The translations under genes were made by a program, and so were the position numbers. From an uncultured Eubacterium sp. (GTDB lineage: Bacteria; Bacillota; Clostridia; Lachnospirales; Lachnospiraceae): 64,000 nt of DNA. Positions 21,182 to 36,973 of this stretch are shown here, piece by piece. Numbering within the stretch: the stretch's first letter is position 1; each line of letters opens with the position of its first letter. The notes under the pieces are model-generated. The model saw only the letters and a program-made list of their open reading frames with translations, was not told the DNA's origin and made no database searches. The stretch is from positions 1 to 64,000 of the forward strand of contig CAMUHY010000015.1 in NCBI GenBank assembly GCA_947088865.1, read 5' to 3'.

Positions 21182-22438
21182 TTATCTAAACAATTCAGGA
21201 TTTAAAAAAATAACAATTAATTCACAGACGACTCCTGTTTCATCCACTCCCCAGAAGTCTGTATAATAGCCATCACCTAAACCAGAAGCAAACATTGCTA
21301 TCTGCGAATTATCAAGCGGATTATTCCACATTAGTAAATCGCCGCCTTTTCTTTGATATGTAGGCTCTTTTTGATAACTTTCCTCAAAGAGTTGTTCAAA
21401 ATAGTCATTATAAATATTTCCATCTTTATGTTCTTGATACCATTTTGATAAAAATTCACGATAACTTTGTGCAGCTTGTTCGTCACAAAAACAGCCCATG
21501 CCACATTCGACAGGAAATCCTGCATATGTCGTCATAAGCGTTCCATTCTTTTCAGCAAGACATTTTGCAAGTTCATATTGTACCGCTTCCTTTTCCGTTA
21601 CTTTCAATCTAGCCCCTACAATCCTACGTCCTGCTATATCAGAATCCATAACAGCAACTTGTACAGGATATTTTCCTGGTGCAATGGATTTTTCTTTAAC
21701 AAAAACTTCTTTTAAATTTTTCAAATAATACAAAGGGTCTGCCGCGATAACTTTACCCGTCTTAAATTCACATGTTCCCATTGTAAATTGTTTTAAGTCA
21801 CTGAAATTTCCAAAAATACTGTTCACCAAATCAACATCCATTGTATCCTTGCTAATAAATTTCAAATTTTTCTCAAAGGCTGTCTGCAAATCATCTTTTT
21901 CACCTTCCTGATTTGCTTCTTTTCTTTTTTGTTCTTCTTCCAGTTCATCTTTCTTTTTTTGCTCCTCTGCCTGCTGTCGCCAATATGCTGATAATTCTTC
22001 ACTTTGTTCCACACCAACTCCATCGCGGTACATTTCCGATACCTGCTGCATCGCTAAAGGATGTCCGCCTTTGGCGGCTTTCATAAAATACTCAAATCCC
22101 TTTTTCACATCTTTTTCAACACCAAATCCCTGACAGTATGACATACCTAAATTGCCAAGTGCTGTTGTATTGCCAAGCGCTGCTGCACGCTCATAATATG
22201 TAATCCCTTTTTTATAATCGGGCTCCATATATTGACCAGAACAGTAAATAAAGCCTAAGTCCATCAACGCATCTTCCATTCCTCCATCCGAAGCTTTTTC
22301 ATAATATGCAATCGCCTTATCAATATTGGGTTCAATATTATTTTCCTCATATCCATTCAAATAAATATCTCCCAAAAACTTTAATGCTGGCAATACACCA
22401 TTTTCTGCATCATTTAATAAACGCTCAAAATCTAACAT
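21182..22438 (-). CDS. Sel1-repeat protein with C-terminal DUF4241
   Basis: 418 residues. Residues 20-165 hold about four Sel1/TPR helical repeats (for example ALGNLGMSYCQGFGVEKDVK), then a charged coiled linker (165-195). Residues 200-418 match DUF4241 (GKVIAADPLYYL, GKYPVQVAV, YAGFPVECGMGCFCD). Such proteins are probably adaptors or polymorphic-toxin immunity-like factors. The mRNA leader carries a predicted pseudoknot just before the GAGG site. Confidence 0.85.
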   Translation of the reverse strand: MLDFERLLNDAENGVLPALKFLGDIYLNGYEENNIEPNIDKAIAYYEKASDGGMEDALMDLGFIYCSGQYMEPDYKKGITYYERAAALGNTTALGNLGMSYCQGFGVEKDVKKGFEYFMKAAKGGHPLAMQQVSEMYRDGVGVEQSEELSAYWRQQAEEQKKKDELEEEQKRKEANQEGEKDDLQTAFEKNLKFISKDTMDVDLVNSIFGNFSDLKQFTMGTCEFKTGKVIAADPLYYLKNLKEVFVKEKSIAPGKYPVQVAVMDSDIAGRRIVGARLKVTEKEAVQYELAKCLAEKNGTLMTTYAGFPVECGMGCFCDEQAAQSYREFLSKWYQEHKDGNIYNDYFEQLFEESYQKEPTYQRKGGDLLMWNNPLDNSQIAMFASGLGDGYYTDFWGVDETGVVCELIVIFLNPELFR

Positions 22439-22443
22439 TTTTT

Positions 22444-22524
22444 CCTCATTTCTGCGCTGCCTTTACATAAAAAATAAAACCATTTTACGGGTTTGTGACA
22501 AACAGCACACAGACACAAATCCCG
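22444..22524 (-). ncRNA. Predicted pseudoknot leader, copy 1 (Sel1-DUF4241 gene)
   Basis: On the minus strand a hairpin CGGGATTTGTG (22524-22514) / CACAAACCCG (22497-22488) has a 16-base loop. Loop bases TGTGCTG (22509-22503) can pair with CAGCGCA (22459-22453). GAAATGAGG with the Shine-Dalgarno follows at once (22452-22444). The same plan is found at 23329-23419 with different stem sequences, and at 36857-36943. Confidence 0.55.
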
Positions 22525-22550
22525 CAAATATTCTTGACACACCTCATAAA

Positions 22551-23321
22551 TTATAGTTCTGATGAAGTTACTTGTTTTGCAAAAATATCATCCAATACCT
22601 TCCAATCGGCAATGCGGTCATCTTCCATCGACTTTGACAACTGCTCATACCGAACAAGCTCTTCTTCAATATATTGTTGTATTATGGGCAGTTTTGGATT
22701 TAAGTTTTTTTCATCACTCGCCGCTTTTATAACAAGCATGGTTTCAATCTCATTTAATAATTCATTTGATGGAACCCAACACAATAAATCCTCAAAATGA
22801 ACAGGTGGAATGGCATGTTGCTGCTCAATAAAACGACAAGCTAAAAGCGGTCTTAAAGCATAAATATATTTTTTATACCGAACCTTATCTTCTTGTAAAT
22901 ATTGTTTAAATGTGCTGTTGGCTGTTCCATAATAGTGATACAATGCTATTTTTTCTGAAAAATACGGCTTACAATGTTTATAAATATCATTCCATGCATC
23001 GGTTGTCTTATAGACAATCGGTGAATTTGCCCACTCAAACAACGTTGCATTTCCCTTGTGAAACTGTATAAGCGTCTTTTTTAAGTCCCACCCATTCATA
23101 TCAAACACTTCGTCAAGCTGCCATTCAATAACATCTCTTTGCTCCTGAAGTTTTAAATAATCCTTCATTGGTCTTACATATACAAATCGCACATCATAAT
23201 CACTGTCGGGCGATTCCACACCCCATGCCCTGCTGCCGGACTCCACCGCGTACAAAATCTTTACATGCTCTTGTTGTTCTATCTGTGCAAGCTTGTCTGT
23301 AATTTCTTTTCTCCTTTTCAA
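22551..23321 (-). CDS. RlaP-type nucleotidyltransferase
   Basis: 256 residues, DNA polymerase beta superfamily (RlaP, PF10127). Active-site motif GSRAWGVESPDSDYD at residues 29-43 with metal Asp41 and Asp43. RlaP proteins are linked to RNA repair; no RNA ligase is nearby, so the substrate is unknown. The start is TTG 23321, 7 bases after GAGG. A second family member lies upstream at 23451-24467. The leader carries a predicted pseudoknot. Confidence 0.88.
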   Translation of the reverse strand: MKRRKEITDKLAQIEQQEHVKILYAVESGSRAWGVESPDSDYDVRFVYVRPMKDYLKLQEQRDVIEWQLDEVFDMNGWDLKKTLIQFHKGNATLFEWANSPIVYKTTDAWNDIYKHCKPYFSEKIALYHYYGTANSTFKQYLQEDKVRYKKYIYALRPLLACRFIEQQHAIPPVHFEDLLCWVPSNELLNEIETMLVIKAASDEKNLNPKLPIIQQYIEEELVRYEQLSKSMEDDRIADWKVLDDIFAKQVTSSEL

Positions 23322-23328
23322 TAAGAAT

Positions 23329-23419
23329 CCTCATTTCTGCGTTGCCTTCTTTTACGAAACACAAAATTTTTTCAATGTTATTTTTACAGCTTTATGCCAA
23401 GCAACGCACAGACACAAAG
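23329..23419 (-). ncRNA. Predicted pseudoknot leader, copy 2 (RlaP gene)
   Basis: Minus strand hairpin CTTTGTG (23419-23413) / CATAAAG (23396-23390) with a 16-base loop starting TCTGTG, as in copy 1. Loop bases TGCGTTGC (23408-23401) are a perfect 8-bp complement of GCAACGCA (23345-23338). GAAATGAGG follows immediately (23337-23329). Confidence 0.6.
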
Positions 23420-23450
23420 TACAAAACAATTTATTTTTCACATAAATCCT

Positions 23451-24467
23451 TTATTTCATTTCAATTGCTTTTCTATTTACATACTCGACAAATGCCTCAA
23501 CCTTTTCCATATCGGGATTATCTGGCAAGATAGTATTTTTTGTTGCCCTTTCAAGTCTGTTTTCATAATCCGATAAGATAGCATAAAATTCATCTGAAAA
23601 GTTTTTGTCTTCCTTTTGAAAATCTCCGCGTCTTATGCTTCTAAGAAGTTCTAAATCATCCATTCTATGAGTCTTTATCTGTCCTTTTTCCAAAATATCA
23701 ATCGCCATCATAAACAGACGAATCAGATGCATAGCATGTTTGTTTAAATGATTATCATCTTTTTTCTTATTGCGTTTCCCAATTTTATCATAATCTCTGA
23801 CAACATTATTCATAGCGCCTAACATATTTTCATAATCGCGCAACGGCAAATGTGTATACTGTGCATCAATAAATAGTTCTGTCTCCCGTTCTGGGTTGTC
23901 GGACTTATCAATATAAATATGAATAGTTCCTTTGTCAAACATATCATTTTTTCGCGCAAAATCCTCCAAAGCATTTTTTACGGAACGATAAATATGCTGT
24001 TCTCGTTCTTGCTGCGGCATGGAATCCCTTGCAATCGCATTTTGCAACCTTCTAAGCTGAGCGCCTGCATATCCGCCAAAAGACTTTGCAGCTCTTTTTG
24101 ATAAAAATAAATGTCTGTTATCTAACAATATTTGACCTAATTCGGTCTTTATCAGATATTGACTGTCATCCAATCCCAACAGTTCTATAATATTCGGATT
24201 GCACTCAAGCAATAACTTTATCATCTTATTAAACGAATAGATAACCGTATCGGTATGGACATCTTCATACTGTTCAAATTCTGTTAATCCCAACAAGTCT
24301 GACGGCAAATTTAATGTCACTCCCCGAAAATCAATATCACTGTTTTCATTGTTTGTCCCATAGGCATAACTTCCCCCAAGTCCCATTAAAATTATACGAT
24401 TTCCAAGCCTTTTATTCGTCCTCAAAAAATCATATTGTTGCGAATGAATCTGTTTTATAAAATCCAT
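23451..24467 (-). CDS. Second RlaP-type nucleotidyltransferase
   Basis: 338 residues. Active-site motif GGSYAYGTNNENSDIDFRG with metal Asp44 and Asp46, so the catalytic pair is intact. It is longer than its neighbour and only distantly similar. A GGAGG site lies before ATG 24467. Adjacency on one strand, 129 bases apart, suggests a joint role. The nucleic-acid or other substrate is not known. Confidence 0.88.
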   Translation of the reverse strand: MDFIKQIHSQQYDFLRTNKRLGNRIILMGLGGSYAYGTNNENSDIDFRGVTLNLPSDLLGLTEFEQYEDVHTDTVIYSFNKMIKLLLECNPNIIELLGLDDSQYLIKTELGQILLDNRHLFLSKRAAKSFGGYAGAQLRRLQNAIARDSMPQQEREQHIYRSVKNALEDFARKNDMFDKGTIHIYIDKSDNPERETELFIDAQYTHLPLRDYENMLGAMNNVVRDYDKIGKRNKKKDDNHLNKHAMHLIRLFMMAIDILEKGQIKTHRMDDLELLRSIRRGDFQKEDKNFSDEFYAILSDYENRLERATKNTILPDNPDMEKVEAFVEYVNRKAIEMK

Positions 24468-35999: not shown

Positions 36000-36850
36000 T
36001 ATGCACAACAACACTTTCCTGTGACAATGACTTCTCCACAAGCACCCTTATCATCACAAATAATCTCCTTTACACAAGGCACATAGATATGTCCGCATGA
36101 TGGATTTTTAATGCTGATAACAGGTGTTGTAATACTTGCTTCCACTTCTGATTTTTCAAAGCAAAGGTCTGTATCTATCATTTCACAGTCGATTAATTTT
36201 AATCCTTTACAATAACAAAGCGGTTGTGTTCCAATAATTTTGCAACGCTCAAAAGTTACATTTTCACAGTACCAAGCAAGGTATTCTCCCTTTACAACAC
36301 TATCTCGCACTGTCACATTTTTTGCATGCCAAAAGGCATCTTTTGTATCAAAAACACAATGTTCAAATATCGAATCTGTAATATACTGAAAGGAGTATTT
36401 TCCTTTCATCTGCACATTTTCAAAATTCAAATGGTCTGAGCGCATCATAAAATATTCACTTTCAACGGTACAATTTTTCATTGCAATATCTTGTACAGAC
36501 CAGCCAAATTCTGGGGAAATAATATCACAATCGCTTATTTTAACTTTACTGCACTCTCTTAATGCTTTAATGCCATGCAATTTTGTATCTGTAATTTCAA
36601 TATCATGTGAATACCAAAGTGCTGCCCTGCAATTGGATGTCATTTCAGATTTACAAATATTTAATTCCTTATCATGCCAAAATGGATAACGAAGGTTAAA
36701 GAAACAATTTTCAACGAAAATATGCTTTCCTTCTTTAAAAGCACTTTCTCCGTCCGCCGGACCATCAAATATACAATCTTTTACAGTAAGGTTTTGCGCG
36801 CCATATAACGCTCTTTCTTCATCAAATGTTTTATTATTAACCATATTCAT
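35999..36850 (-). CDS. DUF3737 beta-helix protein
   Basis: 283 residues. Starts MNMVNNKTFDEERALYGAQN and continues as tandem beta-helix turns rich in CxF/CxI steps (VKDCIFDGP, FENCFFNLR...), the DUF3737 pattern; it ends in CGEVIVTGKCCCA. Function unknown. Start ATG 36850 is fixed by GAGG; the 36898 frame has no site. It shares a transcript with the LysE exporter. The leader is a third predicted pseudoknot. Confidence 0.88.
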   Translation of the reverse strand: MNMVNNKTFDEERALYGAQNLTVKDCIFDGPADGESAFKEGKHIFVENCFFNLRYPFWHDKELNICKSEMTSNCRAALWYSHDIEITDTKLHGIKALRECSKVKISDCDIISPEFGWSVQDIAMKNCTVESEYFMMRSDHLNFENVQMKGKYSFQYITDSIFEHCVFDTKDAFWHAKNVTVRDSVVKGEYLAWYCENVTFERCKIIGTQPLCYCKGLKLIDCEMIDTDLCFEKSEVEASITTPVISIKNPSCGHIYVPCVKEIICDDKGACGEVIVTGKCCCA

Positions 36851-36856
36851 ATCGAC

Positions 36857-36943
36857 CCTCATTTCTGTACTGCTTCTTATATTTATTGACCAAACCATTA
36901 AAAATTTTTACAAATTTGCAGCAAGCAGTACACTGCTGCAAAT
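36857..36943 (-). ncRNA. Predicted pseudoknot leader, copy 3 (DUF3737 gene)
   Basis: Minus strand hairpin with a perfect 10-bp stem ATTTGCAGCA (36943-36934) / TGCTGCAAAT (36923-36914) and a 10-base loop. Nine loop bases TGTACTGCT (36932-36924) pair perfectly with AGCAGTACA (36874-36866). GAAATGAGG follows (36865-36857), as in copies 1 and 2. Confidence 0.55.
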
Positions 36944-36973
36944 CTTGCGGTGAACTATTTTTCACCTTTTATT

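Follow-up and report, generated by a model that had tools for sequence, protein, structure and literature searches.

In the window, i.e. the whole 64-kb stretch of DNA from an uncultured Eubacterium sp. (Lachnospiraceae) analysed here, the minus strand encodes a 418-aa protein with Sel1 repeats and a DUF4241 domain (21182..22438) and a 256-aa RlaP protein (22551..23321). Reading of this strand confirmed what the first-pass annotation had described, namely that the leaders of both genes can be folded as a hairpin (P1), the loop of which is able to pair with a strand that stops directly before GAAATGAGG, the Shine-Dalgarno (SD) block built into the leader (SD2). In the leader of the Sel1-DUF4241 gene (copy 1), P1 (22488..22524) pairs CGGGATTTGTG (22524-22514) with CACAAACCCG (22497-22488), leaving one bulged A, and encloses a 16-nt loop (22513-22498) that begins with TCTGTG; the pseudoknot helix (22453..22509) joins the loop strand TGTGCTGTTT (22509-22500) to AGGCAGCGCA (22462-22453), and SD2 (22444..22452) is followed by the ATG start at 22438-22436. 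In the leader of the RlaP gene (copy 2), P1 (23390..23419) is formed by CTTTGTG(TC) (23419-23411) and GGCATAAAG (23398-23390), with a core stem in which CTTTGTG (23419-23413) pairs with CATAAAG (23396-23390); the pseudoknot helix (23338..23408) joins TGCGTTGCTT (23408-23399) to AGGCAACGCA (23347-23338), SD2 lies at 23329..23337 and the gene starts with TTG at 23321. Farther upstream, GGATTTATGTGAAAAATAAATT (23428..23449) is a possible relic which, by eye only, resembles the older SD (SD1) and the 5' arm of the upstream hairpin (P0) found in other copies and described below.

These leaders had been presented as twins; they are not peculiar to these two genes and actually belong to a family with about 100 matches in the genome, one more of which lies in the window. 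This copy 3 spans 36848-36970 of the minus strand and precedes a DUF3737 gene. It consists of P0 (36949..36970, GGTGAAAAATAGTTCACC inside AAAAGGTGAAAAATAGTTCACC), P1 (36912..36945, AGATTTGCAGC 36945-36935 with GCTGCAAATTT 36922-36912), the pseudoknot helix (36866..36932, TGTACTGCTT 36932-36923 with AAGCAGTACA 36875-36866), SD2 (36857..36865, again GAAATGAGG) and the ATG start (36850-36848). All three copies are matched by cmsearch with a covariance model of which they are themselves building members (copy 1, 22440-22533, E 1.4e-19; copy 2, 23325-23432, E 3.0e-13; copy 3, 36853-36956, E 3.8e-14). In the region 22551-24467 (minus strand), two genes of RlaP-family nucleotidyltransferases adjoin, with an element between them, and elsewhere an rtcB-like gene is also preceded by a copy; a link with RNA repair is not supported, the element being matched about 100 times in the genome, before unrelated genes.

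The first-pass annotation had proposed a covariance search for further homologues, and many were found. The pattern TCTGTGNNNTNN{20,50}GCAGAAATGAGG, derived from the two leaders, occurs at 9 places in the source genome versus 0 in a backwards control. A first covariance model, built from 11 leaders and including the P1 structure only, gave 136 matches at E<=0.1 in the 3.29 Mb of this genome, 150 of 7102 candidates being scored; counted from the match list, 97 of the 136 reach E<=1e-4. Under stricter filters and at E<=0.01, the source genome retains 101 matches. When 40 relatives were searched in the same way, five members of its genus gave 44, 22, 15, 12 and 5 matches, eight further genomes gave 1 or 2 and the remaining 27 gave none; within one genus, matches vary from 101 to 0. 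An exact-pattern scan of named genomes returned at least 114 stretches, and among the 80 matches listed most carry the label of the Lachnospiraceae or its genera and some carry broader or other labels. With a second covariance model built from 104 rows, the element was detected in 54 of the 397 Lachnospiraceae genomes sampled, representing 50 of 334 genera (11 candidates scored per genome), and a recount in 12 genomes chosen among the positives gave 68, 45, 34, 28, 24, 23, 19, 13, 11, 9, 8 and 6 copies. In a sample of the class (15 candidates scored each), 3 of 291 genomes matched: the source genome, one other of the same family and one, more weakly, outside the family. This last match (L311 in G605, E 1.4e-6) shows a knot-like strand and GAAAAGAGG and no clear P1.

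The copies share a simple anatomy. P1 mostly comprises 6-12 contiguous pairs in the aligned copies, commonly (G)ATTTGTG/CACAAAYY and often bulged. In a set of 180 copies that, like a larger set of 216, was selected by anchor, P1 and knot score, the P1 loop measures 10-17 nt in 168 and frequently begins with TCTG, the pseudoknot helix has 6-10 pairs in 172, and the distance from P1 to GAAATG, which includes the 3' knot strand, ranges from 16 to 98 nt. At the 3' end, the knot strand leads to AGAAATGAGG (SD2), about 6 nt and the start codon; a start codon follows 176 of the 180 copies (ATG in 171), with a spacing of exactly 6 nt in 120 of the 176. The motif AGAAATGAGG is one base off the complement of the usual 3' end of 16S rRNA (anti-SD); the source assembly did not yield the corresponding 16S end of this genome. 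Among GAAATGAGG anchors, 175 of 225 reach the score in the loci collected by that stage, most of which were fetched by a model or pattern that itself includes P1 or the anchor, versus 120 of 6000 random positions. Many copies also carry P0 upstream, with arms such as GTGTGAAAAA/TTTTTCACAC, GAGTGAAAGATTT/AAATCTTTCACTC, GGTTGAATCAATTGCT/GGCAATTGATTCAACC and others, preceded by an SD-like GGAGG. A P0 score of at least 18 is reached by 84 of 180 copies versus 10 of 179 control stretches taken 250 nt upstream, and an SD1-like motif is present in 56 of 92 copies with P0 versus 6 of 91 controls; many copies have neither SD1 nor P0. Directly 5' of P0, a repeat close to CGCTACGCTTCGGAATGGAGG was seen in six loci of the source genome (L003, L026, L028, L032, L033 and L236) and in L174, a locus recovered by the genome scan; in the relative G006, a similar TTCGGAATGGAGG stands before trpB, where no element was seen.

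The claim that both helices vary while staying paired through selection was examined with rows gathered by fixed geometry, pseudoknot pairing not being required (73 rows of type A and 44 of type B; types C and D, with 40 and 3 rows collected, lie outside the test). As a null, the substitutions of each column were re-placed on random branches of FastTree trees in 1000 simulations; this is the only test of the knot that is free of selection by anchor, P1 and knot score. Omitting two poorly pairing end pairs of the knot (27/73 in type A, 14/44 in type B), 621 of 657 cells are paired in type A (9 pairs; null 560, sd 31) and 339 of 352 in type B (8 pairs; null 192, sd 39), values reached by 0 of 1000 simulations in both cases. 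Registers slid along the type A knot show 30-54% pairing and no excess. The outer pairs of P1 exceed the null in type B (152/176, reached by 1 of 1000 simulations) and show no excess in type A (166/292, reached by 402 of 1000); the values of the inner pairs are reached by 4 and 14 of 1000 simulations. Furthermore, in 150 unique copies of the selected set, the knot score is 21.95 for own pairs versus 18.26 for permuted ones.

The fold is real enough for selection to keep it: the 9 versus 0 occurrences of the pattern, together with the tree-based test, place it beyond chance. A stricter pairwise test gave hardly any signal: in a G-test with a substitution-shuffling null, similar to the R-scape analysis that had been recommended, significance was reached by only one of 39 pairs, which belongs to the type B pseudoknot; the letters of the inner stem, set by the regular expression used to gather the rows, had no room to vary. 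In the strongly diverged copies L205, L206, L210 and L218, which were selected for pairing, both helices seem by eye to be rewritten, as they do in the diverged copy L310, with one knot mismatch. Minimum-energy folding of the leaders of copies 1 and 2, by a method that cannot form pseudoknots, was unremarkable (z -1.35 and -0.79), which is expected if the pseudoknot matters, though it gives no support either.

The copies display the hallmarks of a dispersed intergenic repeat with an RNA fold, i.e. multiple copies, sharp ends and a conserved structure. Among 60 copies analysed in the source genome, 12 have another copy in that genome that is at least 95% identical over 74 nt. When the 49 pairs that they form are compared in 5-nt bins counted from GAAATG, the bins between -85 and +9 have an identity of 0.84-1.0; the two that follow, which cover the spacer and the start codon, drop to 0.79 and 0.57, and those farther away are mostly at 0.23-0.44; near-identical copies are thus alike over about 95 nt and random beyond. 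For example, identical cores precede genes of a metalloenzyme superfamily, of a cytidylate-kinase-like protein and of a LysR-type protein (L027, L028 and L029). More generally, the genes downstream of the 60 copies match 81 Pfam families, L20 and RecA included, with at most three members each; metK, glmS and the trp genes were named from sequence by eye and from the homologues found, metK from its N-terminus. Comparison of these 60 genes with a sample of 147 genes bearing the element in other genomes revealed four orthologue-like pairs with 68-88% identity (rplT, DUF3737, L210/L250 and L031/L092), the remaining pairs being below 43%. With so few orthologous pairs, the set of genes bearing the element looks largely lineage-specific within the sample. 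In G006, two related genes 2 kb apart (L042 and L054) carry identical elements, so that element and gene were probably duplicated together.

No transposase was found for the element, and inspection by eye of the spacers flanking near-identical copies revealed neither a constant target-site duplication nor inverted terminal repeats, the P0 hairpin being present at the 5' end only. No link with Y1 transposases (PF01797) was seen, their presence failing to follow copy number: this family is absent from the copy-rich genomes G004, G232 and G200 (the assemblies of G004 and G200 being 72% and 86% complete) and present in G003 and G013, which gave no match in the search of relatives. A phage vehicle was also tested; a single IMG/VR stretch fits the pattern and lies before a frame that by eye resembles a cellular gene.

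The position of the insertions can be read at two loci, rplT and glmS, the only ones that provide clear empty and filled pairs; both are filled in the source genome and empty in other species, so that the comparison is made at the species level. Among 30 rplT loci from relatives, 28 of which have a readable start, GGAGG lies 7-10 nt before ATG in 25 of the 26 displayed that are devoid of the element, and a weaker motif is found in the last one. The rplT leader of the source genome retains AAAAGGAGG, followed by the element, GAGG, 6 nt and ATG; that of G004 also carries a diverged copy, before which no ancestral SD is clearly recognizable. In 6 of 13 genus-level relatives, the ATG of glmS comes immediately after AGGAG(G) or CGGAGG (e.g. 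AACAGGAGAAATAGTTTATG in G004 and AGGAGGATTTTTTATG in G001), AAAGG-like motifs are found in six others and the stretch of G006 is ambiguous, while the source genome displays ATAACAGGAGGATTAG, the element and then GAGGATTTTTATG. At trpB, GGAGG directly precedes the start in G004 and G006, the start or SD being ambiguous in other relatives. In addition, one copy (L065) begins directly after GAGGATTA, the end of an earlier element. From these loci, we infer that the element probably entered the gap that separates the ancestral SD from the start codon, bringing a new SD. In the trp region of the source genome (L034), trpF and trpB each have a copy before them, and trpC has a weaker match in which P1 is not clear; at trpF, the frame upstream of the gene is in frame with it and the listed frame is extended through the element.

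In the reading that we consider rather probable from the sequences compared, each of these leaders is therefore a copy of an RNA element about 95 nt long that is dispersed in genomes of Lachnospiraceae and would have inserted into ribosome-binding sites and replaced the SD present there. By landing between SD1 and the start codon, the element would make the gene dependent on SD2. P1 and the pseudoknot would then sequester the GC-rich strands that adjoin SD2, while SD2 itself would stay single-stranded, so that the gene could still be translated while being uncoupled from the sequence upstream. Where SD1 is present, a short upstream frame that ends near SD2 could also be read by ribosomes loading on SD1. 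Folding predictions for 150 copies gave a mean probability of being unpaired for GAGG of 0.575 when P1 was formed and the strands of the knot were reserved, versus 0.475 without the knot and 0.479 in shuffled leaders; under the first condition, the probability exceeds that of shuffled leaders in 98 of the 150 copies. In such models, the fold does not appear to hide SD2, as these values indicate, and may perhaps hold it open; the predicted gain in accessibility is modest with the knot and nil without it. A point against the insertion reading in its purely selfish form is that diverged copies keep their pairs whereas such an insertion would decay, which suggests a function at each gene. A broader proposal can only be made tentatively: a mobile RNA element could have specifically invaded the gap between SD and start codon of up to about 100 unrelated genes of one cell, including ribosomal protein genes, cutting them off from their own SD, substituting an SD presented by a pseudoknot and perhaps placing them under one shared translational control.

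Other explanations assign a regulatory role to the fold itself. A control of translation on a global scale, in which one common regulator (a protein, a small RNA or a metabolite reporting the general state of the cell) would open or lock the knot of a regulon of about 100 genes, would account for the preservation of knot pairing across copies, visible even in strongly diverged ones, for the pseudoknot immediately adjoining SD2 and for the wide recurrence of AGAAATGAGG and of the loop start TCTG. It seems somewhat unlikely, however, given the lack of any theme among the downstream genes and their Pfam families, the four orthologue-like pairs only in the genes sampled, and the range of copy matches within the genus. 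A classical riboswitch specific to one pathway, of H-type like SAM-II, SAM-V or preQ1, would fit an H-type pseudoknot at the SD and the copy found before metK (named by eye), yet we regard it as hardly credible: neither the window nor the element stretches of six loci have an Rfam match, the downstream genes are unrelated and the metK leader already possesses an S-box. Indeed, in this leader (L004:1497-1868, minus strand), a complete S-box riboswitch is followed by the element just before the start codon; this copy has a P1 mismatch and lies outside the selected list, and the element looks there like merely the ribosome-binding part of an already regulated leader. The S-box at metK and the mixed genes downstream make a gene-specific ligand unlikely, and this reading was dropped. 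A ribosomal protein L20 leader, which would be tied to rplT, was also dismissed, rplT being just one of many bearers and 26 of the 28 rplT leaders displayed being without the element.

The upstream part of the copies might instead point to a leader peptide or translational coupling, in which ribosomes loaded on SD1 would start on an NTG inside P0 and steer P1, the knot and SD2 by their progress. The frequency of SD1 in copies with P0 is in favour of such a mechanism, as are the ends of the upstream frames, 27 of 70 stopping in the interval between -15 and +25 nt around the main start and 14 continuing into the gene. However, 22 of the 92 copies have no such start, 17 of the 70 frames stop before -40, and for rplT and glmS the ancestral SD already accounts for SD1; in addition, P1 is by eye read in frames that differ among copies, with no conserved peptide, so that we find this mechanism very unlikely. 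The stricter form of a leader-peptide attenuator was rejected, a conserved peptide or codon run being absent by eye and the frames through P1 differing. Finally, the element might act as an mRNA stabilizer, the knot and the SD-like block halting 5'-to-3' decay and setting a processed 5' end within operons. SD2-type blocks resemble stabilizing SDs, and 177 of 207 copies have, within 400 nt upstream, the end of a frame of 60 aa or more on the same strand, a proportion given with no background rate alongside; such a role appears quite unlikely. Insertion of an SD-bearing element into existing ribosome-binding sites remains the preferred reading.

Should this reading be right, some Lachnospiraceae would translate an appreciable fraction of their genes from a ribosome-binding site that is repeated, folded, carried by an element and absent from Rfam, and repeats would have a new route to rewire translation. 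Gene callers may also set start codons wrongly at copies of the element, for example too early at trpF. Furthermore, the many copies would constitute natural replicate experiments on the effect of a structure beside the SD on initiation.

The first-pass annotation knew no named riboswitch with this outline, and comparison with Rfam agreed: release 15 gave zero matches in the window at the gathering score, and the element stretches of six loci were unmatched at E<=5, S-box, TwoAYGGAY and tRNA being detected nearby. In the H-type translational riboswitches SAM-II, SAM-V, preQ1 and guanidine-III, the loop of a hairpin binds a strand that includes the SD or adjoins it. The element shares with them the pairing of the loop with a strand beside the SD but differs from them by the absence of an Rfam match or gene theme, by its about 100 matches per genome and by an SD that lies outside the knot. 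REP/RAYT elements and MITEs are short, non-autonomous and present in high copy number, as the element is; unlike them, it shows no link with Y1 transposases, and inspection by eye revealed neither inverted terminal repeats nor a constant duplication of the target.

The element behaves like the structured dispersed intergenic repeats, to which ERIC also belongs. Those considered in the part of the literature covered, i.e. bcr1 and Bant-1 of Bacillus and BOX, are short, occur in tens to about 100 copies and are in some cases folded (PMC2267715). The element resembles them in being short, intergenic, high-copy and endowed with a conserved fold, but differs, as far as that description goes, in ending at an SD before the start codon in nearly all copies examined, in having one orientation and in forming an H-type pseudoknot (PMC2267715). 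Within the texts covered, which include PMC8632094, PMC6429828, PMC4679880, PMC2267715 and PMC8040213, their supplements being outside this scope, the element is not described, nor is the combination of a pseudoknot, a built-in SD and a location in the gap between SD and ATG; the 3161 candidates reported in PMC8040213 may include it. A parallel in placement is provided by the TAACTGA repeats of Beggiatoaceae, 169 sets of which occur in one genome, most of them just before start codons; the genes concerned share no functional theme and include some for ribosomal proteins, and the distribution of the repeats is patchy by lineage (PMC4679880). The element is similar to these repeats in its placement before start codons, its mixed genes and its patchy spread; however, according to the sections covered, the TAACTGA repeats are direct repeats of a heptamer for which no RNA fold is predicted and which mostly lack an SD (PMC4679880), whereas the element described here is folded and carries its own SD.
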